A DNA stretch of 64,000 bases from Rhodoligotrophos defluvii (GTDB lineage Bacteria; Pseudomonadota; Alphaproteobacteria; Rhizobiales; Im1), in the NCBI RefSeq assembly GCF_005281615.1, contig NZ_SZZM01000004.1:62001-126000 (forward strand). The letters run 5' to 3'. Positions 10,261 through 46,369 of this stretch are shown here, piece by piece. The position numbers and the translations under genes were made by a program. The notes beneath the pieces are model-generated. The model was not told the DNA's origin, made no database searches, and saw only the letters and a list, made by a program, of their open reading frames with translations. The first letter of the stretch is position 1. Each line of letters starts with the position of its first letter.

Positions 10261-11211
<951 letters not shown>

Positions 11212-11241
11212 TTCGGGCTCTGCCCGCCAGGAGATCGGCCA

Positions 11242-12573: not shown

Positions 12574-12821
12574 GCAGAATTGTCGGCTGCCCGAATCAGC
12601 AAAGCAGCAAGCTGATCGACCGTGCAAGAACTCTGCACAGAGATCAAATCGAGGCCAAATCGCGCCTGTCGCGCTGGATTGCCTTGGAATCCGCCCGCGC
12701 GCCACGGTTGCCGGTCGGCAACACAGCTCCCCAAACCTTAACATTTTTTGTGATCCGTCGCTAAACGTCTCTACTTTCGCCCGGAATTGGCTAGAATTGG
12801 TTAACGGACGAGGGTGGACGC

Positions 12822-13109
12822 ATGTTGGAAACGGATGATCACTACCGTCGCCTTCAAGCGCTTGCAGAGGGCTCCGGGTTCTCGGTTCGAAAGCGGGTTG
12901 TTCCCGCACTGATCGAAAAGGGCCGCATCTTCTACATCGTGGACACGCGGAACGAGCTTGATTCCTTCGGCGATTTCGCGACGCTGGATGAGGCGGAAGC
13001 GTTCCTGAATTTCCTGATTCGCATTCGGCGCGAGCGTGAGTGCCCCCCGCCGATGCCGGCGCCGACCGGCGCGTCTCTGGGGCGGGAAAAGTCGCTCGCG
13101 GCGGCCTGA
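12822..13109 (+). CDS. Small hypothetical protein
   Basis: A 95-residue soluble protein with no recognised domain. Features are a compact N-terminal part (YRRLQALAEGSGFSVRKRVV), a central IFYIVDTRNELDSFGDFATL segment and a helix with DEAEAFLNFLIRIRRERE, then a Pro/Gly-rich tail. The coding frame is well formed with an ATG start at 12822. About 250 bp separate it from folC, with an AT-rich stretch (12,730-12,800) that could hold its promoter. I cannot assign a function. Confidence 0.6.
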   Translation: MLETDDHYRRLQALAEGSGFSVRKRVVPALIEKGRIFYIVDTRNELDSFGDFATLDEAEAFLNFLIRIRRERECPPPMPAPTGASLGREKSLAAA

Positions 13110-13122
13110 GTTTTTGATTCGA

Positions 13123-13171
13123 GCATTTTCGAGCGAAGTGGACACTGGTTCGCGGAAGCGCTCTAAAATGC
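13123..13171. repeat. Rhizobiales-type interspersed intergenic repeat
   Basis: An intergenic 49-bp element with outer arms GCATTTT (13123-13129) and AAAATGC (13165-13171), and inner sequence including GCGAAGTGG and GGTTCGCG. It closely resembles a dispersed element I recall from Rhizobiales intergenic regions. This is recognition from memory, not a search. Confidence 0.45.
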
Positions 13172-13181
13172 GGACGGGGCT

Positions 13182-13202
13182 GTGGCGCCCGGCAGGCGCC
13201 AC
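13182..13202. other. Strong intergenic hairpin
   Basis: GTGGCGCC, a five-base loop, and GGCGCCAC form a perfect 8-bp stem between two convergent genes. Neither side has a long T run, so it may be a weak bidirectional terminator or an RNA-stability element rather than a classic intrinsic terminator. Confidence 0.5.
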
Positions 13203-13217
13203 GGCGGGGCTGCGCGT

Positions 13218-17554: not shown

Positions 17555-17994
17555 ATTCGCGCATCATACAATTTACGGGTATTCTCGAGGTCGCCACTCA
17601 AGGCCAAGGCTTCGTGGACATCACGGGCCGGGTGGCCGCCTGGGTGAGGGAAAGGCAAGCGCAGGAGGGTCTGCTCACGCTGTTCATTCGCCACACGTCG
17701 GCATCCCTCGTCATCCAGGAGAATGCGGACCCTGACGTGCGGGTGGATTTGGTTGCCGCATTTGACCGGCTGGCGCCTCGCAACGCCGGCTATCTCCACC
17801 GGGTGGAAGGGCCAGACGACATGCCAGCGCATATCAAAGCAACCTTGGCCGGCGCCAACGTGGCGGTGCCCGTGAACGATGGTCGGCCCATGCTTGGCAC
17901 CTGGCAAGGCATCTATGTGTTCGAGCATCGCGACCGGCCGCACCGCCGCGAAGTGGCGCTTCACTACATCGGAACCGCGAGAGCTGAAGCATGA
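17551..17994 (+). CDS. YjbQ/UPF0047-family protein
   Basis: A 147-residue protein matching the YjbQ family along its length. The signature is LTLFIRHTSASLVIQENADP followed by DVRVDL, and the C-terminal half contains HIKATLAGANVAVPVNDG and LGTWQGIYVFEHRD. Members are small trimeric beta proteins; some have thiamine-phosphate-synthase activity in complementation tests, but the physiological role is unsettled. It starts at TTG 17551 and overlaps both neighbours by four bases, so it lies in a tightly coupled cluster. Confidence 0.88.
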   Translation: MNSRIIQFTGILEVATQGQGFVDITGRVAAWVRERQAQEGLLTLFIRHTSASLVIQENADPDVRVDLVAAFDRLAPRNAGYLHRVEGPDDMPAHIKATLAGANVAVPVNDGRPMLGTWQGIYVFEHRDRPHRREVALHYIGTARAEA

Positions 17995-18683
17995 GGAATG
18001 GTGCGGGGAAGGACGCGGCGATGGCCGGATATCATTTCATCATCGCCGATGATCATCCCTTGTTCCGCGATGCATTGCGACATGCTCTCACCGCTGCCTA
18101 TGACGGGGTGCAGGTCAAGGAAGCGGGTTCGCTCGACGAGGTCACCGCGTTGCTGGAGGCCGACGATGCCGTCGACCTCCTGCTGCTCGATTTGAAGATG
18201 CCCGGCGTGCAGGGCCTTGCCGGCCTCGCCTATCTGCGGGCGCAATTTCCCGATGTCCCCACCGTGGTGGTCTCCGCCACCGAGGATCTTCCGGTGATCA
18301 GGCGGGCGGTCGCCCTCGGCGCATCGGGCTTCATCCCGAAGTCGACCCCGGTGAGTGCGATCCGCGAGGCGGTGAGGGAAGTGCTGGCCGGGGGTGTGTG
18401 GCTGCCGCCGGACATCGATGCGGCGGGCGCCGCCGACGACGAGACCGATGCCGTCGCCCGTCGGCTCGCGACGCTCACGCCGCAACAGGTTCGCGTGCTG
18501 ATGATGCTGAGGGAGGGCTTGCTGAACAAGCAGATCGCCTATGCCCTGGGCGTTTCGGAGGCGACCGTCAAGGCGCATGTTTCCGCCGTGCTGCAGAAGC
18601 TCGGCGTCGAGAGCCGGACCCAGGCGGTGATCGCGGTCGGCCGCATCGATGAAGAACGCGGACAGTCCGACCCGGTGAATTGA
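17991..18683 (+). CDS. NarL/FixJ-type response regulator
   Basis: A 230-residue protein. The receiver domain (residues about 13-130) has acidic residues in FIIADDHPLFRDAL, the phospho-acceptor Asp in LLLLDLKMPG and the conserved Lys in FIPKSTP. The LuxR-type helix-turn-helix (LTPQQVRVLMMLREGLLNKQ and SEATVKAHVSAVLQKLGV) is at residues about 155-215. No cognate histidine kinase lies next to it, so it is an orphan in this window. The frame opens at 17991; an internal ATG at 18021 (MAGYHF) is an alternative start. Confidence 0.9.
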   Translation: MRNGAGKDAAMAGYHFIIADDHPLFRDALRHALTAAYDGVQVKEAGSLDEVTALLEADDAVDLLLLDLKMPGVQGLAGLAYLRAQFPDVPTVVVSATEDLPVIRRAVALGASGFIPKSTPVSAIREAVREVLAGGVWLPPDIDAAGAADDETDAVARRLATLTPQQVRVLMMLREGLLNKQIAYALGVSEATVKAHVSAVLQKLGVESRTQAVIAVGRIDEERGQSDPVN

Positions 18684-26319: not shown

Positions 26320-26395
<76 letters not shown>

Positions 26396-26523: not shown

Positions 26524-27669
26524 TTAGCTCAAGATTTCCAACGGCGAACAACTGACTTGTTGATAAGCGCCCTCCAGCGCCCCAAGAAATCCCTCCGGGA
26601 ACGAGAGACCGCCTTCCCGCGCACGAGACAAGAAGCCGCGTAAGGCTCTAGCTGATAGCTGTGACCAAGCTGGTGTTCGGTAGGCGGAGATAGTTGAACT
26701 ATCAATTTTAATTGGCTTATCGCTGGCCGGTACCCCAAACCTTCCGTCCTTGTTGCCAAAGCCTGCGTCCGGCCAACTCCGAAACTCCGAAATGGGTGTC
26801 AATTTGAACTTGAGGGCCGGCCGCGGTGTTTTGAGGTTGGCGGCGACCCACTCTGCAACGGGCACCGAGACCGCATTCCCTATCAAGCGCCATCTCGGGT
26901 TGCGGTTCCCATTGGCTGCCTGCGTCCATTGGCGAGGAAAGCCCTGTAAAGCTTCGCAAGTGACAATATCGGGCTTTAGAACATGCCCGTCTGGAAACAG
27001 CACTGCGGGGGGGGAAGGGATACCGATCCCAGACCCTCCCTTTATGGGCGGAATTCCGTTTGCGGTTAGCCCGACACCCGACCGCCCTTCAGTCCAATAG
27101 AATCCAATTGGATTTGAGAGATCAGGAGATTCTTGTGCCTGCTTCGGCTTGTCTTCAGCGAAGAGGACCTCTCTTGGGTCTAGCACCTTGCTCGCGACAA
27201 GGTACACACGTCGGCGCCGTTGAGGCACTCCAAACCCTCGTGTGTCTAGAACTCTATATGCCCAGGCGTAGCCGAGATCTTCGAATTGGGTAAGGAGCCA
27301 ATCCATTGCCTTGCCGCGATCGAGATGGAGCATGAAATAGACGTTCTCCACCACGACAGTAGGAGCATGCGCTTCTTTGATGAGGCGGAAGAGGTTCGAG
27401 ACGACACCAGATTTTTTTCCCACTATCCCACTCTTGTCGCCAGCCATGCTCAGGTTCTGGCATGGGAAACCTGCAGTTACTATTTTCACCTCTGACGGCA
27501 ATGCATTGAGCAATTCGACGTCACCAAAAAGCTCCACCTCGGGGAAGTGGCTTTTGAGTACCGATTGTGCCGCAGGATCAGATTCCGCAAGAAGCACCGT
27601 TTCGAAGCCGGCCCTTGAGAAGGCTAGCTCGATACCACCGATTCCCGCGAAAAGCCCGGCAACTTTCAT
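26524..27669 (-). CDS. dcm: DNA (cytosine-5-)-methyltransferase
   Basis: A 381-residue C5 methyltransferase. Motif I is GLFAGIGGIELAF, motif IV GFPCQNLS with the catalytic Cys, motif VI VVVENVYF, motif VIII GVPQRRRRVYLVAS, and the C-terminal motifs are ALQGFPRQWT and LIGNAVSVPVAEWVA. About 60 residues between VIII and IX form a short target-recognition region, followed by an extra C-terminal tail. The ATG at 27669 (MKVAGLFAG) is chosen over upstream in-frame codons. It is divergent from a second methyltransferase. A Vsr gene on the same island fits protection against T:G mismatches made by 5-methylcytosine. Confidence 0.92.
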   Translation of the reverse strand: MKVAGLFAGIGGIELAFSRAGFETVLLAESDPAAQSVLKSHFPEVELFGDVELLNALPSEVKIVTAGFPCQNLSMAGDKSGIVGKKSGVVSNLFRLIKEAHAPTVVVENVYFMLHLDRGKAMDWLLTQFEDLGYAWAYRVLDTRGFGVPQRRRRVYLVASKVLDPREVLFAEDKPKQAQESPDLSNPIGFYWTEGRSGVGLTANGIPPIKGGSGIGIPSPPAVLFPDGHVLKPDIVTCEALQGFPRQWTQAANGNRNPRWRLIGNAVSVPVAEWVAANLKTPRPALKFKLTPISEFRSWPDAGFGNKDGRFGVPASDKPIKIDSSTISAYRTPAWSQLSARALRGFLSRAREGGLSFPEGFLGALEGAYQQVSCSPLEILS

Positions 27670-27759
27670 TGACAAGTCCGAATCATATGCGGTTTCGGTC
27701 TTATAGGAGATGTGATAGCCAGTCCCAACGTTTCTTGTGTTCATTGCATCCAGGTGAGT

Positions 27760-29130
27760 ATGTTCGAACCGACGTCGCCCCACCCATTCCATGACGACGT
27801 TGTAGCGCTCCATGAGCGCTGTGGGGTCTACACACAGCAAAAGCTTGTGGACGAACTGCTGGATGCCATCGGTTGGAGCGCAAAGGAAGATCTTTCTGGA
27901 AGCCGATTTTTAGAACCGGCAGCGGGAGACGGAGCATTTGTCGTCCGAGCAGCAGCGCGTCTTCTCGAATCTCTGGAGGCACGGGGCAATGTCCCTGAAG
28001 TAGGCGAGATCGAGGACTCCATCCTCGCCTACGAGATTCTTGAGACCGAGGCCGAGAAGGCGCGACTGCGAATTGGAGCCTACCTGGCCGATCGTGGCTT
28101 CTCGCCAGGGGACGCCCAATATTTGGCAGCCCGGTGGCTGCGCACGGCGGATTTCCTACTTGAGGACCACGACGAGCACACGTTTACTCATGTGGCTGGA
28201 AATCCCCCATATGCGCGTTGGTCATCCATCCCGGCAAGATTGAGAGGACAGTACGAGAGCGCCCTACCAAGACGAATGGCTCGTGGCGATCTCTTTTTGC
28301 CCTTTCTCGACCTGTCTCTAGGTTGTCTTCGCCCGGGTGGTCGGCTTGGAATGGTGTGTTCGGATAGATGGCGCTTTATGGCCTTTGCCGAAGAATTTCG
28401 AGAATACTGGTTGCAGGAGATCGACATCGAAATAGATGAGCCGATCGATGCTGCAGACGCATACATGCGCGAGGTGGACGCATATCCAACATTTCTGGTC
28501 CTTAGGCGACGGCCTGCCAAAAGAGAAACAGAACGGAAGCCACAGGCTAGAGAACTTACGCTGGGCGAGGCTGGGTTCAAGGTCAAGGTAGGTCCCGCGT
28601 TAGGATGCACGCCTGCCTTTGTCGTAAATGCCGACACGATAAAAATCGAGGCAGAGATTCTCGCGCCGTGGTTGGACGGAACGGAGGTCAAGGAGGGCGC
28701 GATAGACTACCGGGGTCGGCAGGTCATTGTCCCATATGGGGATGACGGAAAGCTGCGTGATTTATCGCAGTATCCTCTTGCTTGGCGTCACATGAAACAG
28801 CACCGCGCCGCACTAGAGCGTCGGGCCATCACCAGAAACGGTGCGAAGTGGTACCGTCCGATCGACAAGGTATGTTTGGCCGACTGGCAGAAACCGAAGC
28901 TACTGGTACCGGAGATTGCCAAGGTTCCGCGGATAGCCTTCGATGCAAGTGGAGCTATCCCCTCGCACGGCGTGTATGCTATCTTTGGTGCTCCCGATGA
29001 TTTGGAACGCTTGTATAGACAGCTAGCAAATGGCGGCTTGGCTGCCGCCTTAGAAGGCATCGCGCCAAAAGTAAAAGGCGGTTACACAAGATGCTACAAG
29101 AGGTTTTTGGAGAAGATCAGCATTCTCTAG
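27760..29130 (+). CDS. Class I DNA methyltransferase, N6-adenine type (NPPY)
   Basis: A 456-residue protein. The SAM-binding motif I is SRFLEPAAGDGAFVVRA near residue 50. Motif IV NPPY lies in HVAGNPPYARWSSIP near residue 148. RPGGRLGMVCSDRWRF is the following conserved strand. The C-terminal 200 residues (VIVPYGDDGKLRDLSQYPLA onward) resemble the recognition part of Eco57I-like adenine methyltransferases. No PD-ExK nuclease motif is evident, so it is probably methylase-only. ATG at 27760 with AGGTGAG upstream; a GTG at 27712 is an alternative. Its stop overlaps the stop of the convergent 232-residue gene (shared CTAG). Confidence 0.85.
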   Translation: MFEPTSPHPFHDDVVALHERCGVYTQQKLVDELLDAIGWSAKEDLSGSRFLEPAAGDGAFVVRAAARLLESLEARGNVPEVGEIEDSILAYEILETEAEKARLRIGAYLADRGFSPGDAQYLAARWLRTADFLLEDHDEHTFTHVAGNPPYARWSSIPARLRGQYESALPRRMARGDLFLPFLDLSLGCLRPGGRLGMVCSDRWRFMAFAEEFREYWLQEIDIEIDEPIDAADAYMREVDAYPTFLVLRRRPAKRETERKPQARELTLGEAGFKVKVGPALGCTPAFVVNADTIKIEAEILAPWLDGTEVKEGAIDYRGRQVIVPYGDDGKLRDLSQYPLAWRHMKQHRAALERRAITRNGAKWYRPIDKVCLADWQKPKLLVPEIAKVPRIAFDASGAIPSHGVYAIFGAPDDLERLYRQLANGGLAAALEGIAPKVKGGYTRCYKRFLEKISIL

Positions 29131-29825
29131 GTGGCCCATTGGTCGAGTCTCTTTATAATCTCCCGAACGGACGACAATTTCGATGTACTTGAGTACACGT
29201 TCGATAAAACTTTTGGCGCAAATTTTCCAAGATAATTTTTGTTATAGCCATGAATTGACGCCAAAGCCGATGCAAAGAACCCCATTGGGGACTCCGCCGG
29301 AAGGGGAAAAGCTGGATAGCTGTCCGGTATCCACTCTGGAAGGCTTGTACGGACGACCCCCGCTTGATTCCCTACCGACCTGACACGTTTCGAGATTTGA
29401 ATATGTGGATAGGCATGTGCGGAATCACCGGAATCAGCGGGCTCCAATCGAAAAGCCATTGTGTGCCCCCATCGATTCTCTTCGCTTGTATGGTCAATCC
29501 ATAGGACTACGCAAAAGGCGCAGTGGAAACCCCCTTGAGGTGGGGTTGAAAATCGCGGAACAAAAAAAGCGCGCTGAAACCCCTTCGCCCCCGATTCCGG
29601 AACTGGAAGAAAGGGAAAATATAATTGTATATTCCCACTCTTCAATTCATGGAAGAGTCTTTCTATCTGACGTTCATTTCTCTCTATTTTTCCTTCAATC
29701 GATTTCTCAATACGCCTGCGATAATCTTCAGGCACTTTATTGAAGGCTTTAGCACCAAAAATTGCATAGTCCCTTAGGAGATCAGCGAAATCATGCAAGC
29801 CTGGGCTGCTCCAATCGACAGACAT
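29127..29825 (-). CDS. Unknown protein, third gene of the phosphorelay-like operon
   Basis: A 232-residue soluble protein I do not recognise. It has a helical, charged N-terminal third (DYRRRIEKSIEGKIERNERQ) and a central beta-rich part with several aromatic residues (IQLYFPFLPVPESG; GFHCAFCVVLWIDH; WGHTMAFRLEP). The C-terminus has ASIHGYNKNYLGKFAPK. Its ATG lies three bases after the stop of the receiver-domain gene, so it is almost certainly in the same operon as that gene and the kinase. It could be the effector or an accessory factor. Composition is AT-rich compared with the core genome. Confidence 0.65.
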   Translation of the reverse strand: MSVDWSSPGLHDFADLLRDYAIFGAKAFNKVPEDYRRRIEKSIEGKIERNERQIERLFHELKSGNIQLYFPFLPVPESGAKGFQRAFFVPRFSTPPQGGFHCAFCVVLWIDHTSEENRWGHTMAFRLEPADSGDSAHAYPHIQISKRVRSVGNQAGVVRTSLPEWIPDSYPAFPLPAESPMGFFASALASIHGYNKNYLGKFAPKVLSNVYSSTSKLSSVREIIKRLDQWAT

Positions 29826-29828
29826 GAC

Positions 29829-31079
29829 CTAAAGTGCAAACCTGCTGTGCGGTGAGTAGTGAAAACCATCGACTAGAGCAACGTATCTACGATTCCATTC
29901 GCCTTCAAACTCTGCAGCGAACTCTTTGGGAGAGCCTCCCTCTGATTTCCTGGGGCGGAAACTCGAAAGATCTTCGCAAAATACGAAATCACCCCACTCA
30001 CCCCCATCTTCATAAAGAAGGCTCTGAAGGCCATCGTCGGCTTCAAGGATCGACCACCAAAAGAGTGGTTTTGGTGCCCAGCATTCATCTGAAAAAACCG
30101 CTGCAGCGATGTGCTTGTCATACAGAGCCTGGTCAAATCCGAACGGAGGGGTCCTGCTGCGAGCAGAGGCATTCCACGCATCTATATCTGTCGCTTTATT
30201 TGCCAGCAGAAAAGGCATTCGGGCCAGCAGATGAGGAGCATCGACGAGCGCACTTTGCGGTCCGATTACATCACGTTTCAGCCAAACATCGATCTCGGCG
30301 GCGACAATCCGAGCAATCACCTCATCCAGCTTGTGGGCCAGGAGTTTATCTCTGTCTTCTTTCACCGGAATTGAGCGATTTGAGAACTCGAAAAACTCTC
30401 GAAAAGTCACCGAACTCGGGGGTTTGTCGTGTGAGTCTCCACCTTGTCCTGCGCTGGGCGAAAGGGCGCCTTCTGCATGCCTCGAAAGCAGACGAACTGA
30501 TGCCTCGCTAAACCCCAGCGCGGGAAGAATAGGGTTGTCGAGGTTCCGCTGCACGAAATTGATTTGATTTCGCCTTTGATCCGGCGCGGTCGCTAGCGTG
30601 GGCCAATACCATGGTTGGAACGATCCCGGCTCACCAAAGTCCCCAAACCAGAGCCACCTACTTGAGAGATGTTCGGTCTTCGCAGCAAAGTCTGACCGCG
30701 TGCTGTAATCGCCGATCAAGAATCGCAAGTCGAAATCTACATAAGGGTTCTTGTTGAGAGAGATGATGTAGGGGGAATTCGAAAAGGCTCGCAGATATCC
30801 CGCAATTGCCTCGGCCGTCAGCCTAGTTCCGGAAATAGCTAATGCCGAAAGATTGTTGTCGAGGAGTATGAGATCGAAGCCATCGAAATCGGATTCGAGC
30901 GGACCGGAGTCTGTTCCATTCAGAAGATTTTTTACTTTGTCGAAGAAGCTCACGACGTCTTTGGTGAGTTTATCCGTGTCCCATGCAACGATTTCATGAT
31001 CCGGCCCAAGCGTTTGGAACAGGGACTGCCGCGCTTCTTCGCGTTGCTGATCTCTGTCATCGCAAAGAAGGATTTTCAT
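29829..31079 (-). CDS. Receiver-domain protein with large unknown C-terminal region
   Basis: A 416-residue protein. Residues 1-125 look like a response-regulator receiver: acidic pocket in MKILLCDDRDQQREEA (D7, D8), phospho-acceptor D74 in FDLILLDNNLS, and a Lys in IISLNKNPY at the place of the conserved lysine. The remaining 290 residues are not a known DNA-binding output domain; they are rich in Trp/Phe (WLWFGDFGEPGSFQPWYWP; KPLFWWSILEADDG). Three bases separate it from the upstream kinase and three from the downstream gene. The likely role is phosphorylation by the kinase and action through the unknown C-terminal part. Confidence 0.72.
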   Translation of the reverse strand: MKILLCDDRDQQREEARQSLFQTLGPDHEIVAWDTDKLTKDVVSFFDKVKNLLNGTDSGPLESDFDGFDLILLDNNLSALAISGTRLTAEAIAGYLRAFSNSPYIISLNKNPYVDFDLRFLIGDYSTRSDFAAKTEHLSSRWLWFGDFGEPGSFQPWYWPTLATAPDQRRNQINFVQRNLDNPILPALGFSEASVRLLSRHAEGALSPSAGQGGDSHDKPPSSVTFREFFEFSNRSIPVKEDRDKLLAHKLDEVIARIVAAEIDVWLKRDVIGPQSALVDAPHLLARMPFLLANKATDIDAWNASARSRTPPFGFDQALYDKHIAAAVFSDECWAPKPLFWWSILEADDGLQSLLYEDGGEWGDFVFCEDLSSFRPRKSEGGSPKEFAAEFEGEWNRRYVALVDGFHYSPHSRFAL

Positions 31080-31082
31080 GCT

Positions 31083-33299
31083 TCAAGCCCTCCACGTCAA
31101 TTCTAAAGTGGTTGAGTATCCCTCTATCGGCTCAACGAAATGGATGTCGGCTTGGCGCTGGCGGGCGATCATTCTACAAATAGTCAGTCCCAGTCCCTGT
31201 CCTCCGATCGCAATTGACACTTGATCTGGATCAAGTTCGAGCAATCGTTCGAACGGCTCGAACAACCTGTCGGACTCGGCAATTTCGATCCCCAGCCCCT
31301 TACCGTTGTCGCTGATTCGTAGATACTCCGTCGACCGTCCGCGTTGCCCGCCGTCGAAACGGATGCTGGGTTTGGGGGTCTGGAGCATCGCGTTCCAGGA
31401 GTTGGTTAGCGAGTTCTGGATTAGTGCGTTCCATTCTGCCGCAGAACCCACAGGAAACCGGAGGTCATCGGGGATTCCATTCGTCTCGAATGTAACGCCC
31501 GGCATAATGGTCCTTACGGCATTGACCGTTTGCTCGACAATCGGTTTCACTCTGAGCCTATGGCGTGCTGATTTGTCTTCATCCGACAGCAGTGGAATAA
31601 AGAGACCTTGAAGGTTTTGTAGACGCTCATGAGCCTCAGAAAGACTACTGATCACACCATCAAGCTCGGAAAGCTGTCGTGTACGCGCGATGGTACGCAG
31701 CTGATCAATTGCACTCTTAAGCAATCGCCTTTCTCGTGACAATTCATGACTCAACGCCAAAGCGGCCATTCCAGCTGATGCGAGGGGAGCCAATAAAGCC
31801 GCCCTACGATCCTGCTCTTCCTCTTCGGCCCGCGAGGTCTTCAACGCATCGGAAACCTCCTTGCGTACTTCGTTGAAGACACCTTGCGGGATCGATTCCC
31901 TATTTTCTTCCAGGACCTCCAACGCACGGGCTTGTTTAACCGTAGCTCGTTCTACTGTCCGAACCTGTTCAACACGGCGTGCTTCCCGGAGTCGGTAACG
32001 ATTTGCATAAAAGTCGATGGCAAAGCGAACGAGATCACGCAACTGATCATGTGCCTGGTTATCGTGAAGACGATCACGGCCTGGCTGCAATTGTAGAAAA
32101 TTACCGGGAGTCTCACCTGCCTTCTCGGCCACGGCACGCTCATGGCTCGTATTAATGTCGACCGCTCCGAAGAGCCGGCGTGGATCCGGCAAATCTAACA
32201 TGTACCGCTGGCCGATCCGGAGACTTTGCGGCAGCAACTGTGAGATCGATAAGCGAGCAGTCTGGTCGGCTGCGATATTAAGCCAGTCATGTTCCATGCC
32301 GTAGTATGGCAGTCTAAACCCGGCATCATAGATCGCTACGTTTCCGAATTTCTCCAAGTACTCTCTCAACTGGGAAACGAGAACACCGCCCGCCTGACGG
32401 CCTTCAAGCTTGAAGACGAGTATCTCAAAGCTTACGCGGTCCAATAGCGGTTCAACGGAGCCTCTGATTGGAAGTGAAACGGATTGCTCAAATTGCTCGG
32501 CTGGCATTCCAGCCGGATATCCGTCCTTGAACTCGACGACCACGGATGCAGGACGATTTAGGCGCCCCTCTCTCAACGTGCCTCGGATGCGGGCCCTCCA
32601 ATTGCTCCGCAATGCGTTTATGTGAGCATCGAATCTCTGCTGCGCATCTTCGATTTCGGGGGCAATCACCGAAACATCGAAATCTTCGGCTGTTCTGGTT
32701 GTAGGACTTCTGTGTCGTCTCCTGAAGGGCGAACGCAGCGACCACAGTTGCTCACCCAAGTCTTGGATGCGGTCCGCATTCCAGATGTCCTTTAACCCCT
32801 TGAGAGTGATTGTCGTGCCCGACTTGGAGTCATAGGGGAAGACGGAGCCATGCGGCTCAAGAGCCCACGCAACCTCAACTGAAGCGAGATCCTTGCCTCG
32901 AACTATGCTACTCCAATCGATGAGCGCATGCAGCGTTTCTTGGGGAGAGCTCTTGGAAACTGTCCGCAGTTCCATTTCCCGAGCGAGGAACTGGACTGCC
33001 AGGCGCCCAACGCCCTTCGACCCGGTCAGGGGCCGATGGAGTTCTCGAGATAATCGGTCTTCGAGTTTGTGAGTAGTCCCGATGCGAAGCCAAAACTGGC
33101 GAAATTCATCGAACGACATTCCATGGCCGTCGTCGGCAATCTCGATACTGTCTTCGCCAAATGTTACGATGCAAGTGAATGCATCTGCGTCGTATGAATT
33201 CTTGATGAGTTCCGCGAGGGCGATGTGTGGTTGCCCTATCAAGCGCTCGCCCAACTCCTGTAAAAGGGCGGCGTCAACTGTAAAGTTGAGCTTCTGCAA
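31083..33299 (-). CDS. Dual-GHKL sensor histidine kinase-like ATPase
   Basis: A 738-residue protein with two GHKL ATP-binding domains. The N-terminal one is of MutL/Hsp90/MORC style: N-box ALAELIKNSYDADA (residues 28-40), IADDGHGM (54-61), GSKGVGRLAVQFLA (93-106). A long middle part ends in a helical DHp-like segment with AALALSHELSRER near residue 516, a candidate phospho-accepting His. The C-terminal one is a typical kinase domain: NALIQNSLTNSWNAM, ISDNGKGLG, LFEPFERL, GGQGLGLTICRMIA. No membrane segment is predicted, so it is cytosolic. It is first in an operon with a receiver-domain protein, inside a methylation island. Confidence 0.82.
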   Translation of the reverse strand: MQKLNFTVDAALLQELGERLIGQPHIALAELIKNSYDADAFTCIVTFGEDSIEIADDGHGMSFDEFRQFWLRIGTTHKLEDRLSRELHRPLTGSKGVGRLAVQFLAREMELRTVSKSSPQETLHALIDWSSIVRGKDLASVEVAWALEPHGSVFPYDSKSGTTITLKGLKDIWNADRIQDLGEQLWSLRSPFRRRHRSPTTRTAEDFDVSVIAPEIEDAQQRFDAHINALRSNWRARIRGTLREGRLNRPASVVVEFKDGYPAGMPAEQFEQSVSLPIRGSVEPLLDRVSFEILVFKLEGRQAGGVLVSQLREYLEKFGNVAIYDAGFRLPYYGMEHDWLNIAADQTARLSISQLLPQSLRIGQRYMLDLPDPRRLFGAVDINTSHERAVAEKAGETPGNFLQLQPGRDRLHDNQAHDQLRDLVRFAIDFYANRYRLREARRVEQVRTVERATVKQARALEVLEENRESIPQGVFNEVRKEVSDALKTSRAEEEEQDRRAALLAPLASAGMAALALSHELSRERRLLKSAIDQLRTIARTRQLSELDGVISSLSEAHERLQNLQGLFIPLLSDEDKSARHRLRVKPIVEQTVNAVRTIMPGVTFETNGIPDDLRFPVGSAAEWNALIQNSLTNSWNAMLQTPKPSIRFDGGQRGRSTEYLRISDNGKGLGIEIAESDRLFEPFERLLELDPDQVSIAIGGQGLGLTICRMIARQRQADIHFVEPIEGYSTTLELTWRA

Positions 33300-33353: not shown

Positions 33354-33803
33354 ATGATGAACAAATCGCGAGCCCCCGGCGCCGTCGATCCAAAGAGGTC
33401 TGCGCTAATGGCGCGGGTCCGACAGAAAGACACCACTCCAGAAATGATCGTTCGGCGCGTAGCCCACGGACTTGGTTATCGGTTTCGTCTGCACCGTACA
33501 AGCCTACCTGGGAGTCCTGATCTAGTGTTTCCATCTCGAAGGGTCGCGGTTTTCGTTCATGGATGTTTCTGGCATCGGCATGAAGGATGTCCAAAATCAA
33601 CCGTCCCCAAGACACGCCAAGAATACTGGCTATCGAAATTCAAGGATAATGTTACGCGTGATGAGAGAGCCGTAGCCGAGTTGGAACTGCGAGGATGGTT
33701 GGTAATAGTGATCTGGGAATGCGAGACAACCAGTCCGGAAAAGGTCGCCGGACGGTTGAAGGCTTTCCTTGAAGGAATTGTACCAAGCCGATCCGAGGTC
33801 TGA
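33354..33803 (+). CDS. vsr: Very-short-patch-repair endonuclease (Vsr)
   Basis: A 149-residue Vsr-family nuclease. RSALMARVRQKDTTPEMIVR is the N-terminal signature. PGSPDLVFPSRRVAVFVHGC, with the catalytic Asp, and FWHRHEGCPKSTVPKT, with zinc-ligand His/Cys residues, form the active-site region. WLVIVIWECET is the last strand. Vsr nicks next to T:G mismatches that arise when 5-methylcytosine deaminates, so it partners the C5 methyltransferase at 26524-27669. It is divergent from the kinase gene (54 bp apart). Two ATG codons lie at 33354 and 33357. Confidence 0.93.
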   Translation: MMNKSRAPGAVDPKRSALMARVRQKDTTPEMIVRRVAHGLGYRFRLHRTSLPGSPDLVFPSRRVAVFVHGCFWHRHEGCPKSTVPKTRQEYWLSKFKDNVTRDERAVAELELRGWLVIVIWECETTSPEKVAGRLKAFLEGIVPSRSEV

Positions 33804-33808
33804 TTCCA

Positions 33809-34750
33809 TTATCCTTTGAAAACGCGCTCGCGGTGATATTTGAGAAACTGCGGGTGTGGGCGATCTTCGGCCCGTGAAGGTAGTCGTAGCTGCCTCTCCG
33901 GGTCCAACAGCCGTATCACTGTGTCCGGCACCGACCGGCCGGCGGTGAGCACTGTGTAATTGTCATCGATCGAGATCAAGCCGCGATCAAACATCCAGTG
34001 AACGGTGCCCGAGAGCGCGATGCCGTTGCGCACGCTGTCCGGCCCTTGGTCTGCCACGGGGCGAATATGCACCGCTTGAACCTCTGATCGCCCACCGCCG
34101 TTGATGATCTTCAGGCCGGTGACCGCGCAGGTATCTTGATAGGCCGTCTTAATCGCAACGGCGAACGCCCGATCGCGAAACGGCCGTTGCGAGATGGTCA
34201 TTACCATGTCGCGAACTTGGATCTCGGGCTCGAATGGGACCTGGGCTGCTTCGCCGAAACCGGCAATCGTCAGCGGCTCCTCGGCGGCATCCGGTGAAGG
34301 GCGCGGACGCTCTTCGCGACCGAGCACATGCGCGAAACCGGCTTGGAGGATGAGATCGTACTCATGGTCCGGAAGGTTGCGCACGGCACGCCCGAACGCG
34401 CCCTTGTTGGTCGACCCATCCTCTTTCTTCAGGGCGGCCTCGTAGTAGAAATCGACCTCCTTGAAAGGCACGGGTCGGTCGAATTCGAGATAGTCGGCCA
34501 CCAGCGCGTAGAAGTGGTCGGGCCGGCTCGGATCGGGGATGATGTTGGTAATGCGCGCCGTAGCGAAATATGCCTGCCGGCCTCCTATACTGGTCAAGTC
34601 GCTGCTTCGGCGTCGGGGCTCGTAATAGAGAATCCAATCACCGACTGCCGCTTCAACCTGGCGCAGATAGGTACGGGGGAAGTGATACCGCTCTTCTGGT
34701 AGGTCATCATACGTGGAATCGATCTTGGTGATCAGAACCGCTTTCGTCAT
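33809..34750 (-). CDS. HNH endonuclease with N-terminal PUA/EVE-like region
   Basis: A 313-residue protein. The C-terminal third is an HNH domain: CAVTGLKIINGGGRSEVQAV, then HIRPVADQGPDSVRNGIALS and LHW-like VHWMFDRGLISIDDN. The N-terminal 110 residues (AVLITKIDSTYDDLPEERYH; VGDWILYYEPRR; YFATARITNIIPD) resemble PUA/EVE-type modified-base-reading domains, an assignment from pattern only. Such fusions are predicted modification-dependent or R-M nucleases, and this could be the restriction partner of the island's methyltransferases. The ATG at 34750 (MTKAVLITK) is preferred to upstream in-frame codons. Confidence 0.78.
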   Translation of the reverse strand: MTKAVLITKIDSTYDDLPEERYHFPRTYLRQVEAAVGDWILYYEPRRRSSDLTSIGGRQAYFATARITNIIPDPSRPDHFYALVADYLEFDRPVPFKEVDFYYEAALKKEDGSTNKGAFGRAVRNLPDHEYDLILQAGFAHVLGREERPRPSPDAAEEPLTIAGFGEAAQVPFEPEIQVRDMVMTISQRPFRDRAFAVAIKTAYQDTCAVTGLKIINGGGRSEVQAVHIRPVADQGPDSVRNGIALSGTVHWMFDRGLISIDDNYTVLTAGRSVPDTVIRLLDPERQLRLPSRAEDRPHPQFLKYHRERVFKG

Positions 34751-34938
34751 GTGCCGACAATGCCCCTTTCCATCAACCTGCTTTTCCTTATGCCGCGAAA
34801 CAGCGCGCCTGAACATACCGCTGCTTGAGGGCGCCCCGATGCATCAGGCCCTATCCGCCGGCGCTTCACTGAATACCAGAAGCGGCCCTGCAACTTGGCA
34901 CCTGCAGCGACATATGTGATAAATATTCTGCAGATATC

Positions 34939-35249: not shown

Positions 35250-37085
35250 ATGCATATCAAGCAAATTACGCCGATCACTATTCGGGACATCGACTTCACG
35301 GTCGCACGCCAGATCGAGCAGTGCCCCAAAACGATGATGCTTCGCGAACTGGTTATGAATGCCATTGAGGCCGCTGCGAAGGCGCCAGAGGGGCGGCGCA
35401 TTATCGAGCTGAAGGGCAAATCGGTCCCCGAATGCGGCGATGCTCGTAAGCTTACCATCTGGAACACCGGCCCGGGCATGAGCAGTGCCGAGCTTGACCA
35501 TATCTGCGATCTCGCCGCTTCGCTTGGCAAAGACATGGCGCTCGAAGGAAATTTTGGCATGGGCGCGAAGGTGGCTTCACTGCCCTCCAATACGCTGGGA
35601 ATGCGTTATCGTTCTTGCCATGATGGCATTGTGAGCCAAGTCATATTCGGGAAACGCGAAGGTATTTACGGAAAGGTGTGGGTTCCGGTCGAAGACTCCT
35701 TTGAGGAAGTAGTCGACGTAACGGAGATGGTTCGCGAGGAAGCGGAATATCAACTCGATGAGGACTGGACCGAGGTTGTTCTTTTCGGCAACGATCCCGA
35801 TCAGGACACCGTGGCCGATCCTTATGATAGCGATCCGAAGCAAGATCGTCAGTGGATTACCACCTATCTATACCATCGCTTTTATAAACTGCCCGAGGGG
35901 GCTGAGATCTACCTGCATGAAGGGACCCATCCTCGCGACGGGCGGCGACAGTTCAAACCGATCCCGGAGCGGTCAGACGCCTTTGGCCGTGTCGAGACGG
36001 TTGATGTCGGGGAGGGCGTCAAGGTCCACTACTACTATGATCCACCGTATCAAGATGGTGGGCACAACAAGTCGATTTCCGGGTCGCTTACCTCCTCTGT
36101 CAGCACTGCGGCGGTCGTATTTCGGGGTGAGATGTACGACGTCCGGAAAGGTAGAAAATGGGCTGCTGACGCACCTGCGTTTGGCATTCCGTTTGGCGCT
36201 CGACACATCTCCATCCATGTGGAGATACCGGACAGGTTTCCTGTCCGTCACGAGCCATATCGGCGTTTCGTGCAGCTTGCGGCCGGCGATCAACGGCAGG
36301 TAATGGTCGACGACTTCGCGGAGATCGTTTTCCGGCACCGGCCCGAGTGGTTGATTGAGATCATAAATTTGCTTGCGCCTAAGGCTTCCGCGTCCACCGA
36401 TGATCTCCGCAAGGAGTTGCAGGAGCTGCTGAACCAGCTTCGGGTGAAGGTACAGAGTCCCCGCCTCACGATGGATGGTATCGAGTCCGTTGAAGAAGGC
36501 GGCGCGCGTGGTGCGACTATCGGCCACGTAAACGGTTCGGGTGGCGGTGAACGCGGTTCGGTTCGTCCCACCGATCTCATCTTCAACCCTTCCGGAGCAA
36601 AGCGGGCCAACATCTCCAAGAACCTCGAAGTGGCACCGGAGATAATCCCGCTCCGCGACGAGAATGAGGTTGCTGACAAGGGCATCGCCGGCAAGGCCGC
36701 ACGCTATGTTCGCGAGACGAACCAGTTGTTCGTCAACCTTACGTATTCCGCAGTGGAGGCGGCGCAGGAGCATTTGGAATTGCGCTATGCAACATATGAA
36801 GATCCGGAGATGGTGCGAGAACTCGCACGTCAGTGGTCGGAGCGTCTCATCATGGGGCGCGTGGGCTACGCGGTCATCTATGCGCAGGCCAAGCAGTTGA
36901 TCCGAGAATGGACCCCCGATGATGTGAAGAAGGCGTTGGAACCCGAAAGCCTAAGCTTGGCGGCCGATGGATGGAGAGATGCCGTAGGTAACGTCTATCG
37001 CAGCATGAGTAAGCGATTTGGTGCTGCTAAAGGAGCCACTGACGCCGACATGGAGTTGGAGGCGACCAGTTCGGAGCTGATCTGA
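35250..37085 (+). CDS. GHKL-type ATP-binding protein of unknown function
   Basis: A 611-residue protein with an Hsp90/MutL/MORC-like ATP site at the N-terminus: N-box MLRELVMNAIEAA (residues 30-42), IWNTGPGM (70-77, Asn where the G1 motif usually has Asp) and EGNFGMGAKVAS (99-110). The rest contains mixed alpha/beta segments, a Gly/Ser-rich linker near residues 420-440 (ATIGHVNGSGGGERGSV) and a helical C-terminus. There is no kinase DHp domain, membrane helix or nuclease motif. It is co-transcribed with the 76-residue gene. Defence-island context suggests an anti-phage or conflict role, which is unproven. Confidence 0.72.
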   Translation: MHIKQITPITIRDIDFTVARQIEQCPKTMMLRELVMNAIEAAAKAPEGRRIIELKGKSVPECGDARKLTIWNTGPGMSSAELDHICDLAASLGKDMALEGNFGMGAKVASLPSNTLGMRYRSCHDGIVSQVIFGKREGIYGKVWVPVEDSFEEVVDVTEMVREEAEYQLDEDWTEVVLFGNDPDQDTVADPYDSDPKQDRQWITTYLYHRFYKLPEGAEIYLHEGTHPRDGRRQFKPIPERSDAFGRVETVDVGEGVKVHYYYDPPYQDGGHNKSISGSLTSSVSTAAVVFRGEMYDVRKGRKWAADAPAFGIPFGARHISIHVEIPDRFPVRHEPYRRFVQLAAGDQRQVMVDDFAEIVFRHRPEWLIEIINLLAPKASASTDDLRKELQELLNQLRVKVQSPRLTMDGIESVEEGGARGATIGHVNGSGGGERGSVRPTDLIFNPSGAKRANISKNLEVAPEIIPLRDENEVADKGIAGKAARYVRETNQLFVNLTYSAVEAAQEHLELRYATYEDPEMVRELARQWSERLIMGRVGYAVIYAQAKQLIREWTPDDVKKALEPESLSLAADGWRDAVGNVYRSMSKRFGAAKGATDADMELEATSSELI

Positions 37086-39441: not shown

Positions 39442-39693
39442 ATGGACCAGATTGCCCGCACCCCCAAGCAGATCGGTGACACTATCCGCCGCCACCGCCG
39501 CAAGCTCGGCCTGAACCAGGCTACCTTGGGCGAGCGCACGAAGCTGCGCCAGGCGACGATCTCGGCGGTCGAGGCGGGCGCGCCGGGTACCCAGCTCAGC
39601 ACCTTGTGCGACATCCTGGCGGCGCTCGACCTGGAGTTCGTCATCCGCCCGCGCTCGAAGGCGACGCCCGATGAGATCGAGGATATCTTTTGA
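39442..39693 (+). CDS. hipB: HipB-type antitoxin (XRE family)
   Basis: An 83-residue protein. The HTH is IGDTIRRHRRKLGLNQATLG, followed by KLRQATISAVEAGAPGTQLS. The short C-terminal strand EFVIRPRSK is typical of HipB, which dimerises through it. It should bind the upstream operators and inhibit HipA. ATG at 39442 with GAGG upstream. Its TGA overlaps the ATG of hipA by one base (TGATG). Confidence 0.9.
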   Translation: MDQIARTPKQIGDTIRRHRRKLGLNQATLGERTKLRQATISAVEAGAPGTQLSTLCDILAALDLEFVIRPRSKATPDEIEDIF

Positions 39694-41000
39694 TGGCCCG
39701 ACCGCGCCGGCATGTGCCGCTCAATGTCTTCCTCAACAGCCGCCTGGTCGGCCGCTTGAACCGGCAATCGACCGGTGCCATCGATTTTCAGTATGACCCC
39801 TCATGGCTGGTATGGGAGCACGCGCTGCCCGTCTCGCTGTCCCTGCCGCTTCGCGAGGAACGCTATATCGGCGCGCCCGTTATCGCCGTATTCGACAACC
39901 TGTTGCCGGACAGCGAGGCCATACGCCGACGTGTGGCGGAGCGCGTGCATGCCGAAGGAGTGGATGCTTACAGCCTGCTCAGCGCCATTGGCCACGACTG
40001 CGTCGGGGCGCTCCAGTTCCTGCCCGATGGCGAGGAGCCGGGCGCGGCCGGTGCTGTGAACGGTAAGCCGGTGGATGAGGACGAGATTGTCCATATCCTC
40101 GGCAACCTCGCATCAGCCCCGCTCGGCCTTGGCGAGGACGAGGACTTCCGCATTTCAATTGCCGGGGCACAGGAAAAGACGGCGTTGCTGCTCCGGAACG
40201 GACGCTGGCACAAGCCGACCGGCACGACGGCGACGACACATATCCTGAAGCCTCAGATCGGACGGCTGCCGAACGGGATCGACCTCTCATACAGCGTCGA
40301 GAATGAATATCTGTGCCTGAAGCTCATGGCGGCTTTGGGCATTCCGAGCGCCGGAGTCGACATCGCGGAGTTCGGCGGCAAGCGGGTGCTGGTCGTCGAG
40401 CGTTTCGATCGGCGGTGGACGCGCGACGGACGTCTTCTGCGCCTGCCGCAAGAGGACTGCTGCCAAGCGCTTTCGGTGCCGCCCACGCTCAAATATGAGG
40501 CTGAGGGCGGGCCGGGCATTGCCGCCATACTGAACCTGCTGACGGGCAGCGACACACCGGATGACGACCGGGCCATGTTCCTCAGGGCGCTGGTGACATT
40601 TTGGCTTCTCGGCGCGACGGACGGCCACGCCAAGAACTTCAGCGTTTTTCTATATCCCGGCCAGCATTTCCACCTCGCGCCCCTCTATGACGTGATTTCC
40701 GCCCAGCCCAGCGCGGACGCAGGACAGCTCAAGCGCAATCAGATGAAGCTCGCAATGGCCGTTGGCGATAGCCGGCATTATGTGGTCGAGACAGTCATGC
40801 CACGCCATTTTCTCCAGACGGCGGCCAAGGCCGGCATCGGCGCCTCGGTCGTCGAGCGTGTATTCGAGGACATCCGGACACGCGCGCCAGCCGCAATCAA
40901 GGAGGTCAAGCAAACGCTCCCAGCCGGTTTCCCCGAGGAGATTGCCGCGTCGATCTTCGGCGGCTTTGAGCAGCGGCTAGGGCGGCTGGCCACGCGATGA
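39693..41000 (+). CDS. hipA: HipA-type serine/threonine kinase toxin
   Basis: A 435-residue protein. The N-terminal domain has LPVSLSLPLREERYIG and FDNLLPDSEAIRRRVAERV. The kinase core has the SIAGAQEKTALL loop, the catalytic GATDGHAKNFSVFL region and the metal-binding Asp in LYDVISA. In E. coli HipA phosphorylates glutamyl-tRNA synthetase and causes persistence; the target here is unknown. The ATG at 39693 overlaps hipB. An intrinsic terminator follows the stop. Confidence 0.93.
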   Translation: MARPRRHVPLNVFLNSRLVGRLNRQSTGAIDFQYDPSWLVWEHALPVSLSLPLREERYIGAPVIAVFDNLLPDSEAIRRRVAERVHAEGVDAYSLLSAIGHDCVGALQFLPDGEEPGAAGAVNGKPVDEDEIVHILGNLASAPLGLGEDEDFRISIAGAQEKTALLLRNGRWHKPTGTTATTHILKPQIGRLPNGIDLSYSVENEYLCLKLMAALGIPSAGVDIAEFGGKRVLVVERFDRRWTRDGRLLRLPQEDCCQALSVPPTLKYEAEGGPGIAAILNLLTGSDTPDDDRAMFLRALVTFWLLGATDGHAKNFSVFLYPGQHFHLAPLYDVISAQPSADAGQLKRNQMKLAMAVGDSRHYVVETVMPRHFLQTAAKAGIGASVVERVFEDIRTRAPAAIKEVKQTLPAGFPEEIAASIFGGFEQRLGRLATR

Positions 41001-41151: not shown

Positions 41152-42963
41152 TTATTCCTCCGACTCCGAGCTCCCGCGTATCCACTTGGCCTGCTTGCCC
41201 TTACCGATCTGCACGATCTGGCCGGACTTGGCGAGGTCGGCACGCACCATATTTAGCGTTGCCTCAGACGCGATCGAGCGCGCTTCTGCGGCGAGCTGCA
41301 CCGCCTTCCATTTAGTCGGCTCGTCAGAGAGGTACTCCAGGACGAATTCTTCGGCCGCCTGCCGCTCGCTGCTCGGACGGCCAACCGCATTCTTCTGCAC
41401 CCGGCAGACATCGTAGTGATCAGCATCGCTGAAGGCGAACGGGCGAAGCACCGGTACGTCGTCACGACCACCGCCGATCTTTTCGAAGACGATCGTCTTG
41501 CCCTTCTCGCTCTGGTTCGCTTTCCCGTGGGCAAGAGCGACCCGTCCAGGATCGTCAGGGTCGGGTCCGAAGAACAGTGCTGACCGGATACTGGCGGCAA
41601 AGCCGATGGAGCCGACGATGCGATAAAGCGGGTTCTCGGTGCTCTGCTTGTTGAGGTGGGCGAGCCCGACAATCGCAGAGCCCGTCGCTTCGGCCATCTC
41701 GGTCAAAAGGGCCATGAATTCCCCGACCTCGTTTTGCCGATGCATGTCACGCCCACCGCCCATATAGGCGGACAGCGTGTCGACCATGACGAGATCGGGG
41801 CGCCATTCCTCCATATGCTCGGAGAGCAATTCCAGCCGGTCGTTGGTGAGGGCGCGGAACTTGTACATCTGATGGAGATTGTCGAGATCGACACCGGCCT
41901 TTACCAGCCGGTTCAGCACGACGCGCTGCCAGTTGTCCTCGGCGGCAAGCACCAGGACGCGATTGCCGGTAGGGCGCTCCTTGGAAAGCGGCCATGGTTG
42001 TCCGCTTGTCACGGTTGCCAGAAGCAGAGCCGTCAAAAGTGACTTGCCCGCGCCTGGATCGCCGGCGATCAGCGTCATGCCGTAGCGCGGGATATAGGGA
42101 TACCAGAGCCATTCCATCGGAAGTGGCTCACGTTGCACCGGCGGTCCAAACAACTCCTGGCGGGTCTCGCCATAGCGCGTGCTGCTGCCGATCAGGCTGC
42201 GAAGTTCGCGTTCCGACAACGGCTTCTCACAGGCGGTTGCGTTCGCCACCTTCAGCATGTCGAAGATGACCTTCTCGTCATCGATCCGTCTTCGAATCGC
42301 GCAGGCCGTTCGGAACAAGACATCATTTCTCTCGCCAACCTTGAGGGCGTGGCGTGGGCCTCCGCGCTTTCCCGTCCTGCCGGCGGCTTCTGTCTTTGAG
42401 GCGCGCAGATCCACGAGCCCCTCCGGTACAGGCACGGCTTCCTTAACCCGTGAAGGCACCCATCGATAGCGATCGCCGCTTTCGTGGAGGCTCGGCGGAA
42501 GCATGACGTAGCGGTTCGAGCCGGTGAGCACGTCGACCTGATCGCCCTTAAACGCTCCATCGTCCAGGGCTCCGAGATAATGCCGGTGCCTCCCCCGCTT
42601 GGTCCTTACTTCAATGGTCTTAGGGAGTCTGAGGGCATCGACAGCAGCTTTTCCCTTTGGGCCGTCGACATCAACCACCGTGCGACCTTCAAGTGTCGTG
42701 GCGATGTTCGCGTTCGGGTATTGTCGAAAACCCCTTCGGATCAGGGCTAGGTCGGTCGTGGCGCTGTTGGCGCCGTTCGGAAAGAACTCGGCGATCGGGT
42801 GTTTGCCTGCGTGAGGGCAATCGCGATTGCCGCAGGTGCACCGGCCATTGGCATCGATGCCGTGGGTCAGGAGGAGTTGGAAGCCCGCTTTCAGATAGGC
42901 GCGGGCGGCGACCGACGGCTTTTCAGAACGCATGCCATCGGTCACGCGAAATGCAGTTCGCAT
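41152..42963 (-). CDS. Primase-polymerase / RecA-like helicase replication protein
   Basis: A 603-residue protein. The N-terminal part (residues about 20-190) resembles bifunctional primase-polymerase domains: GRCTCGNRDCPHAGKHPIAE, NIATTLEGRTVVDVDG, GRHRHYLGALDDG. The C-terminal half is a RecA-like AAA_25 helicase: Walker A TLIAGDPGAGKSLLTALLL near residue 300, Walker B PDLVMVDTLSAYMGGG near 393, and ATGSAIVGLAHLNK. GGAGAAA precedes the ATG at 42963. Such proteins start replication of phage satellites and mobile islands after excision. It is downstream of the AlpA gene on the same strand. Confidence 0.82.
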   Translation of the reverse strand: MRTAFRVTDGMRSEKPSVAARAYLKAGFQLLLTHGIDANGRCTCGNRDCPHAGKHPIAEFFPNGANSATTDLALIRRGFRQYPNANIATTLEGRTVVDVDGPKGKAAVDALRLPKTIEVRTKRGRHRHYLGALDDGAFKGDQVDVLTGSNRYVMLPPSLHESGDRYRWVPSRVKEAVPVPEGLVDLRASKTEAAGRTGKRGGPRHALKVGERNDVLFRTACAIRRRIDDEKVIFDMLKVANATACEKPLSERELRSLIGSSTRYGETRQELFGPPVQREPLPMEWLWYPYIPRYGMTLIAGDPGAGKSLLTALLLATVTSGQPWPLSKERPTGNRVLVLAAEDNWQRVVLNRLVKAGVDLDNLHQMYKFRALTNDRLELLSEHMEEWRPDLVMVDTLSAYMGGGRDMHRQNEVGEFMALLTEMAEATGSAIVGLAHLNKQSTENPLYRIVGSIGFAASIRSALFFGPDPDDPGRVALAHGKANQSEKGKTIVFEKIGGGRDDVPVLRPFAFSDADHYDVCRVQKNAVGRPSSERQAAEEFVLEYLSDEPTKWKAVQLAAEARSIASEATLNMVRADLAKSGQIVQIGKGKQAKWIRGSSESEE

Positions 42964-46323: not shown

Positions 46324-46369
46324 ACTGAAAATCCGCGTGTCGGTGGTTCGATTCCGCCCCTGGGCACCA
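46324..46369 (+). other. attR: 46-bp direct repeat
   Basis: Identical to the last 46 bases of tRNA-Phe (26350-26395). Upstream bases (CTA) differ from the tRNA, so no complete tRNA is made here. It marks the right end of the island. Confidence 0.93.

Follow-up and report, generated by a model that had tools for sequence, protein, structure and literature searches.

A three-gene operon beside DNA methyltransferase and Vsr genes

The window, that is, the whole stretch of DNA analyzed here, consists of 64,000 nt of the Rhodoligotrophos defluvii genome (assembly GCF_005281615.1, contig NZ_SZZM01000004.1, positions 62,001 to 126,000 of the forward strand). It contains an operon of three genes, all located on the minus strand and separated by 3 bp each time, encoding a kinase (HK), a receiver protein (RR), and a third protein (C). 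HK (738 residues; positions 31083 to 33299; TTG start) is composed of an N-terminal paraMORC/MutL-like GHKL ATPase, a DHp-like helix, and a C-terminal kinase ATPase, and is presumed to be soluble. RR (416 residues; positions 29829 to 31079) is modeled as a receiver fold followed by a C-terminal domain that is mostly helical and falls in no known family. C (232 residues; positions 29127 to 29825) belongs to an unannotated family, possibly a distant relative of DUF2290 through proteins designated C' (see below).

Two DNA methyltransferase (MTase) genes lie on one side of the operon. The first encodes a C5-cytosine MTase (positions 26524 to 27669, minus strand, with a likely Met start inside open reading frame [ORF] 26524 to 27840; Pfam and NCBIfam matches). 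The second encodes an Eco57I-type N6 MTase (positions 27760 to 29130, plus strand, with a likely Met start inside ORF 27712 to 29130; matches in Pfam and in PADLOC-DB, used in its 2023 version) and is tail to tail with the C gene, with an overlap of 4 bp. The other side carries genes for a Vsr mismatch endonuclease (positions 33354 to 33803, plus strand; profile matches), which is the sole Vsr match in its own genome (E ≤ 0.001), and for an HNH_2 nuclease (positions 33809 to 34816, minus strand; Pfam, 42.9 bits), an occasional companion of the operon. The C-terminal HNH part of the latter protein weakly matches a phosphorothioate-DNA restriction family (75 bits for a cutoff of 180), and its N-terminal part, to which no family is assigned, may resemble a modified-base reader of the PUA/EVE type. 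The three-gene layout, the 3-base spacing, the protein lengths, and this set of neighbors had been proposed in a first-pass annotation of the window, and the ORFs and profile matches agree with it on each of these points.

Conservation of the operon and linkage to DNA methyltransferases

A genome scan based on an HK alignment confirmed at least 518 relatives of HK, of which 80 were kept for analysis. RR was encoded at 28 loci, namely, the window, loci L002 and L011 to L013 (L numbers designate the loci of relatives), and 23 of the 80 loci from the scan. Occurrences of RR, HK, C, MTases, and Vsr at these 28 loci were counted by profile searches of all reading frames. The ORF set does not include L003 or the short loci L008 to L010 of the first collection, which are covered by L053 and L011 to L013. 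The HK gene is in pieces in L015 and in L053, an Ornithinimicrobium plasmid, and both loci were excluded from the analysis of HK conservation, from the tree, and from the HK Mantel counts. L053, in which RR is partial, was also excluded from the RR alignments and retained among the 28 loci.

HK adjoins RR at all 28 loci (in broken form in L015 and L053). C is encoded at 27 of them, either overlapping RR or at most 86 bp from it, except in L024, where the distance is 1.9 kb; at the remaining locus, L028, the contig ends 284 bases past RR. The C5 MTase was detected at 28/28 loci, Vsr at 20/28, and the Eco57I-type N6 MTase at 12/28; the window-type HNH_2 nuclease was found only in the window and in L013 (2/28), both of which are seeds of its model. 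For comparison, among 200 genomes of the phylum, 49 had any Vsr and 120 had a C5 MTase. When 398 genomes of this phylum were searched with an RR profile, four were positive, including that of the window, with HK and C adjacent in all four; in the three others, HK, RR, and C form a single operon, and genes for a C5 MTase and Vsr lie close by. Searches of plasmids revealed HK-RR-C in Mycolicibacterium and, in Ornithinimicrobium, HK in pieces, RR, and C located in the downstream DNA. A separate scan of viral contigs yielded seven close HK loci: the six intact ones all have HK-RR-C-C5, and the seventh is cut inside HK, with an MTase present. The presence of the trio at 27 of the 28 RR-bearing loci and at 6/6 intact viral-contig loci confirms that the operon is real and conserved beyond chance. 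The first-pass annotation had called for a survey of recurrence in other islands, and the three genes do travel together with DNA MTases; single genes outside such islands were looked for and not seen.

The close family is distributed in the Pseudomonadota, Acidobacteriota, Chloroflexota, Actinomycetota, Nitrospinota, Poribacteria, and one Hodarchaeota metagenome-assembled genome. In the latter (an Asgard genome; L029), the full Vsr-C5-HK-RR-C cassette is present, possibly as a result of bin contamination. The order HK-RR-C with a convergent N6 MTase gene and a divergent C5 MTase gene is shared by the window, L014, L015, L016, L020, L034, and viral contig L123. The window, L014, L016, L020, and L034 fall into a single clade with full support, in which members of the Pseudomonadota and Acidobacteriota are intermingled (the tree does not include L015). 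L012 and L025 are near copies of each other. Distances between proteins were correlated for HK-RR (0.68), HK-C (0.45), RR-C (0.51), and HK-C5 (0.50), with 0/2000 permutations as high in each case. In L002, L018, L026, and L032, C5 MTase and Vsr are fused in one reading frame.

BLAST clustering of the other ORFs (≥90 residues) at the 28 loci identified a single family, an integrase, in more than two loci (6/28); apart from Vsr, this clustering, applied to flanks that are not fully annotated, showed no nuclease or restriction enzyme family at three or more of the loci. None of ten flanking ORFs, taken one per locus from 10 loci, matched a PADLOC restriction enzyme model (E ≤ 0.001), and two of them weakly matched other PADLOC models. 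Another of the ten, a gene located beside the L016 cassette (positions 10807 to 13965, plus strand), matches the Mokosh (MkoA/MkoC) helicase models, indicating a defense-type gene.

Conserved residues of HK and RR

Both ATPase domains of HK score above the Pfam cutoffs: HATPase_c_3 covers residues 25 to 130 (positions 32910 to 33227, minus strand, as are all positions given below for HK, RR, and C; 65.4 bits for a cutoff of 25), and HATPase_c covers residues 626 to 734 (positions 31098 to 31424; 53.4 bits for a cutoff of 26.4). The intervening DHp-like helix contains the motif SHELS. Its histidine, the proposed phosphorylation site, is H518 (codon at positions 31746 to 31748), followed by E519, and is invariant in 26/26 intact homologues. 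The first-pass annotation had thus recognized the two ATPases and the helix and misplaced the histidine, "near 516," by a short distance. Among 27 tabulated HK positions, 24, including H518 and E519, are invariant in the 26 intact copies, the variable ones being L330 (25/26), N636 (23/26), and D664 (25/26). The ATP sites are therein largely invariant. The DHp helix region (residues 510 to 570) matches HEF_HK with 17.2 bits, below the cutoff of 24.1. For the N terminus, the nearest named families are restriction enzymes of the BbrUII/HgiDII type, over their N-terminal part: NF050001 aligns with residues 5 to 175 (76.2 bits, far under its cutoff of 550) and PADLOC REase_II with residues 5 to 112 (2e-10).

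RR had no Pfam or NCBIfam match at E ≤ 1 and no PADLOC match at E ≤ 0.01. Its AlphaFold model (pLDDT of 91.2) displays a receiver fold at the N terminus. The best PDB matches of the model are response regulators, the first one at an E value of 3.9e-3 and none at E ≤ 0.001. Matches in the PDB were confined to the receiver part, with none for the C-terminal output region (approximately residues 165 to 416; positions 29832 to 30587), and a Pfam search with 26 RR members returned four chance-level families (E of 0.03 to 0.05, one member each), Response_reg_2 not being among them. A known output domain was therefore not found on RR, either by Pfam with the window protein and the 26 members or by the PDB search with the model, and no DNA-binding domain was recognizable in RR or C (Pfam for both, PDB search with the RR model). 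These results are in line with the earlier description of a receiver protein whose C-terminal part matches no known output domain and does not bind DNA. D74, proposed as the phosphoacceptor in the first-pass annotation (codon at positions 30858 to 30860), is invariant in 27/27 RRs, as are D7, N109, D130, and others; D8 is conserved in 26/27. In the output region, W266, D280, E369, D370, F374, R398, and P410 are invariant. The trio thus combines a conserved DHp histidine (26/26) and a conserved receiver aspartate (27/27), as in a canonical two-component system.

The third protein and its possible relationship to DUF2290

Searches with C lacking its first residue detected no Pfam or NCBIfam match at E ≤ 1 and no PADLOC match at E ≤ 0.01. 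Similarly, 0/26 C members matched any Pfam family at E ≤ 0.05, PF10053 (DUF2290) included. The searches of the C-terminal part of RR and of C that the first-pass annotation had advised thus returned no family or fold, and no routine metabolic enzyme. The C family is characterized by the signature R126-x-E128...H137-x3-H141-x-Q143 (positions 29397 to 29450), in which R126, H137, H141, and Q143 are conserved in 27/27 sequences and E128 is conserved in 26/27. Written out as a pattern, the motif occurred in 38 of 3,921 reading frames, including clearly unrelated ones, and was disregarded as evidence. The model of C has a pLDDT of 79.2. Folds of the E2/UEV type recurred among its weak PDB matches, with TM-scores of approximately 0.15 to 0.2 on the query, and were set aside. 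TumE (PF20126), found in 3 of 120 genomes searched, is a possible look-alike of C.

A relationship was suggested by the C-like third proteins (C') of more distant HK loci. Profile alignment of C' with DUF2290 gave a P value of 4.4e-7, in comparison to 0.17 to 0.75 for seven unrelated profiles aligned with DUF2290. Alignment of C with C' gave a P value of 5.2e-5, the best of the set of C' alignments, in comparison to 0.21 to 0.96 for seven unrelated profiles aligned with C; unrelated profiles aligned with C' gave 0.18 to 0.94. Among 30 C' proteins, one matched PADLOC DUF2290 (7e-4) and another matched the REase_II model (0.006). The two weak profile steps, from C to C' and from C' to DUF2290, suggest that C may be akin to a known family of antiphage proteins. 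According to the accessible portions of PMC9122126, DUF2290 is the partner of a helicase in a tested anti-T7 system (Helicase+DUF2290). DUF2290 shares a D/E...H-x3-H...P signature region with the C' proteins and, through these, perhaps with C. The systems differ in that the ATPase partner in the available description of Helicase+DUF2290 is a helicase, whereas the trio has a kinase/receiver pair and C is not a PF10053 member. Pfam detected no helicase domain in the three proteins of the operon or in the neighboring window genes scanned.

Relationship to published systems and to the wider kinase family

The operon is not wholly new, since a two-gene cousin was published in 2021 by Bellieny-Rabelo et al. 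(PMC8011034), and the designation of the system as undescribed in the first-pass annotation does not hold in this respect. The available portions of that paper report restriction-modification (R-M)-linked kinases containing HEF_HK (PF19191) with Response_reg_2 (PF19192) partners, 91.6% linkage across 644 regions, with enrichment of C5 MTase, Vsr, and HNH_2, a wide and patchy distribution, and no function assigned. These systems share with the trio a HATPase_c_3...DHp-like...HATPase_c kinase adjoining a receiver gene and the C5 MTase, Vsr, and HNH_2 neighbors. For comparison, we used 10 PF19192 loci from the 10 positive genomes of 398, with the C5 MTase at 10/10 and Vsr at 5/10 loci. At these 10 loci, HK frames comprise 990 to 1155 residues and RR open frames comprise 547 to 817 residues; the kinases score 65 to 100 bits with the HK model versus 726 to 1183 for the intact window-family copies, five of which are seeds of the model. 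C was found at 0/10 of these loci with both C models (E ≤ 1e-3). Response_reg_2 did not match the window RR (E ≤ 1), and none was found in G000. The presence of its own receiver and of a third gene identifies the operon as a sister branch of the HEF_HK/Response_reg_2 systems. We found no description of this three-gene branch or of C in the literature covered, which excluded bioRxiv preprints and most subscription journals.

N-terminal GHKL ATPases in R-M or defense operons also occur, according to the accessible portions of the reports, in the MORC/paraMORC R-M systems, for which a role in DNA looping or remodeling was proposed (Iyer 2008; PMC2292703), and in the GHKL-Shedu protein VcSduA (PMC12137116). 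In the portions of those reports available, GHKL domains are joined to nucleases and helicases, by fusion or by linkage, whereas that of HK is fused to a histidine kinase core and linked to a receiver. Kinase-receiver signaling for phage defense, here only proposed for the trio, recalls Detocs. This defensive two-component system has an ATP-cleaving effector, its receiver being fused to a purine nucleoside phosphorylase, whereas RR has no purine phosphorylase Pfam domain and the trio is linked to MTases. DefensePredictor (PMC13092281; Fig. 6F) includes a HATPase+REC system, predicted and not validated; the text lists a purine phosphorylase domain, and the system may therefore be Detocs-like.

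Fifty-seven of the 80 HK loci lack this RR. Among these, 44 have a receiver-type neighbor (RR') detected by an iterated profile, 29 have a C-like third gene, and 41 include a gene for a C5 or N6 MTase within the stretch examined. RR and RR' align by profile (P of 4e-11), and Response_reg_2 was matched by 2 of 46 more distant RR'. Two stray matches, a large ORF of L042 and window positions 17991 to 18683, were removed, indicating that the iterated RR' profile drifts. Downstream of the kinase, L069, L072, L074, and L079 carry a short frame of the receiver type (approximately 210 to 235 residues) and a different partner. In L060 and L080, a dual-GHKL kinase is followed by a short frame (approximately 210 to 236 residues) that is not of the receiver type by profile. 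The other partners at these six loci comprise about 207 or 338 residues. Effector swapping on one kinase chassis is possible in L069, L072, L074, and L079 and also in L060 and L080.

Proposed function of the trio

The trio may constitute the attacking arm of a methylation-guarded defense module carried by mobile islands, in which phosphotransfer from HK to RR and C takes the place of a restriction enzyme; we rate the chances of this reading as about even. The neighboring C5 MTase, together with the N6 MTase in the sub-branch of the window, would mark host DNA. Through its paraMORC-type GHKL ATPase, HK would sense incoming DNA that is unmodified or differently modified, or its replication. The C-terminal kinase of HK would phosphorylate H518, and the phosphate would be transferred to D74 of RR. 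Phosphorylated RR would then switch on C, its own C-terminal domain, or both, and the activated component might attack phage DNA or stop the infected cell. For the trio, we infer phosphotransfer, sensing of DNA or of its methylation, the effector step, and defense itself. The module reading is the most economical one, in that it accounts for the mobility of the operon, the MTase that always accompanies it, the absence of a restriction enzyme that recurs, the preserved phosphorylation sites, and the restriction enzyme-like GHKL domain. The candidate phosphorelay and defense role advanced in the first-pass annotation are, as a whole, partly supported.

Several observations weigh against this reading. 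Collection of 23 of the 28 loci was based on HK, so the presence of HK at those loci is not independent evidence; several contigs are short, and the flanks lack an annotation for each individual locus. Nucleases that have diverged would be overlooked by BLAST clustering, an HNH_2 nuclease is present in the window, L012 and L025 share genes that appear by eye to be HNH-like, and L003/L053 carries a PaeR7I-type enzyme. In the receivers, the residue following N109, a lysine in the window RR, is K in 4/27 and Q in 15/27. Vsr tracks HK weakly (Mantel coefficient of 0.245, 18/2000 permutations), and the distance correlations can also be explained by shared descent. For 16 of the 57 distant HK loci, neither a C5 nor an N6 MTase was found in the stretch examined. 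Concerning C, Foldseek searches of the PDB and BFVD with its model returned no usable match (best E values of 0.8 and 0.2, respectively), P values of only 0.0071 and 0.0055 were obtained for C with two earlier C' alignments, and the link to C becomes weaker (P of 0.003) when DUF2290 and C' are pooled. A direct match between C and DUF2290 was rejected (profile comparison, P of 0.21).

A more far-reaching version, which we advance tentatively, is that the operon embodies a new restriction principle. HK would read the methylation set by the cognate MTase and relay a "non-self" signal by His-Asp phosphotransfer to a DUF2290-like effector, in a modular design with one kinase chassis, exchangeable MTases (C5/N6), and exchangeable receiver/effector pairs. 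If so, two-component signaling would act as the effector arm in a system that tells self from non-self by methylation. The paraMORC ATPases, which are relatives of the eukaryotic MORC silencers, would gain an input and an output that can be defined. With at least the 518 relatives confirmed above, the kinase family is large, and C provides a candidate class of effectors for a group of kinase/receiver systems, the published relatives of which lack a known function. The invariance of H518, D74, and R126/H137/H141 makes the idea directly testable.

Alternatively, the trio might regulate the neighboring R-M genes, acting on the expression or activity of the MTase, Vsr, or nuclease, and not attack DNA itself. 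The two-component design and the constant MTase linkage in the close family fit such a role, as does the speculation, in the available part of PMC8011034, that HEF_HK/Response_reg_2 pairs control R-M. However, RR and C have no recognizable DNA-binding domain, no restriction enzyme family recurs in more than 2/28 loci to be regulated, and C leans toward DUF2290 rather than toward a regulator family. We consider this alternative unlikely. Quite unlikely is the possibility that HK, RR, and C assist a conventional nuclease, be it HNH_2, Vsr, or an enzyme encoded elsewhere, as an accessory complex in which the GHKL domain would loop or remodel DNA, as proposed in the accessible portion of PMC2292703 for MORC/paraMORC R-M systems. 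The paraMORC-like N terminus of HK, the HNH_2 gene in the window and L013 islands, and the occurrence of Vsr at 20 loci are in line with this proposal, but the window-type HNH_2 is confined to those two loci, Vsr was not found at 8/28 and tracks HK weakly, and there would be no need for an intact kinase core, H518, and D74.

A mobile island at the tRNA-Phe gene

The operon cassette occupies one end of an island of approximately 20 kb (positions 26320 to 46369). That end is formed by a tRNA-Phe gene (tRNA gene call; positions 26320 to 26395, plus strand), and the last 46 bases of this gene are exactly repeated at the other end as an att-like sequence (positions 46324 to 46369, plus strand), which a tyrosine integrase gene adjoins (positions 44618 to 45859, minus strand). 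The integrase and repeat, and the copies on plasmids and viral contigs, would also suit a postsegregational stabilizer of the island, in which MTase loss would lead HK to detect unmethylated host DNA and C to kill the cell, as in toxin-antitoxin or R-M addiction, with defense secondary; this alternative, in which toxicity is hypothetical and which is compatible with defense, is very unlikely.

The island also encodes a second GHKL ATPase protein of 611 residues (positions 35250 to 37085, plus strand), which scores barely above the Pfam HATPase_c cutoff and of which its own profile detected no further copy in the ORF set of the relatives' loci. Genes for a Prim-Pol primase (positions 41152 to 42963, minus strand) and for HipA (positions 39690 to 41000, plus strand) are located between the two island ends.

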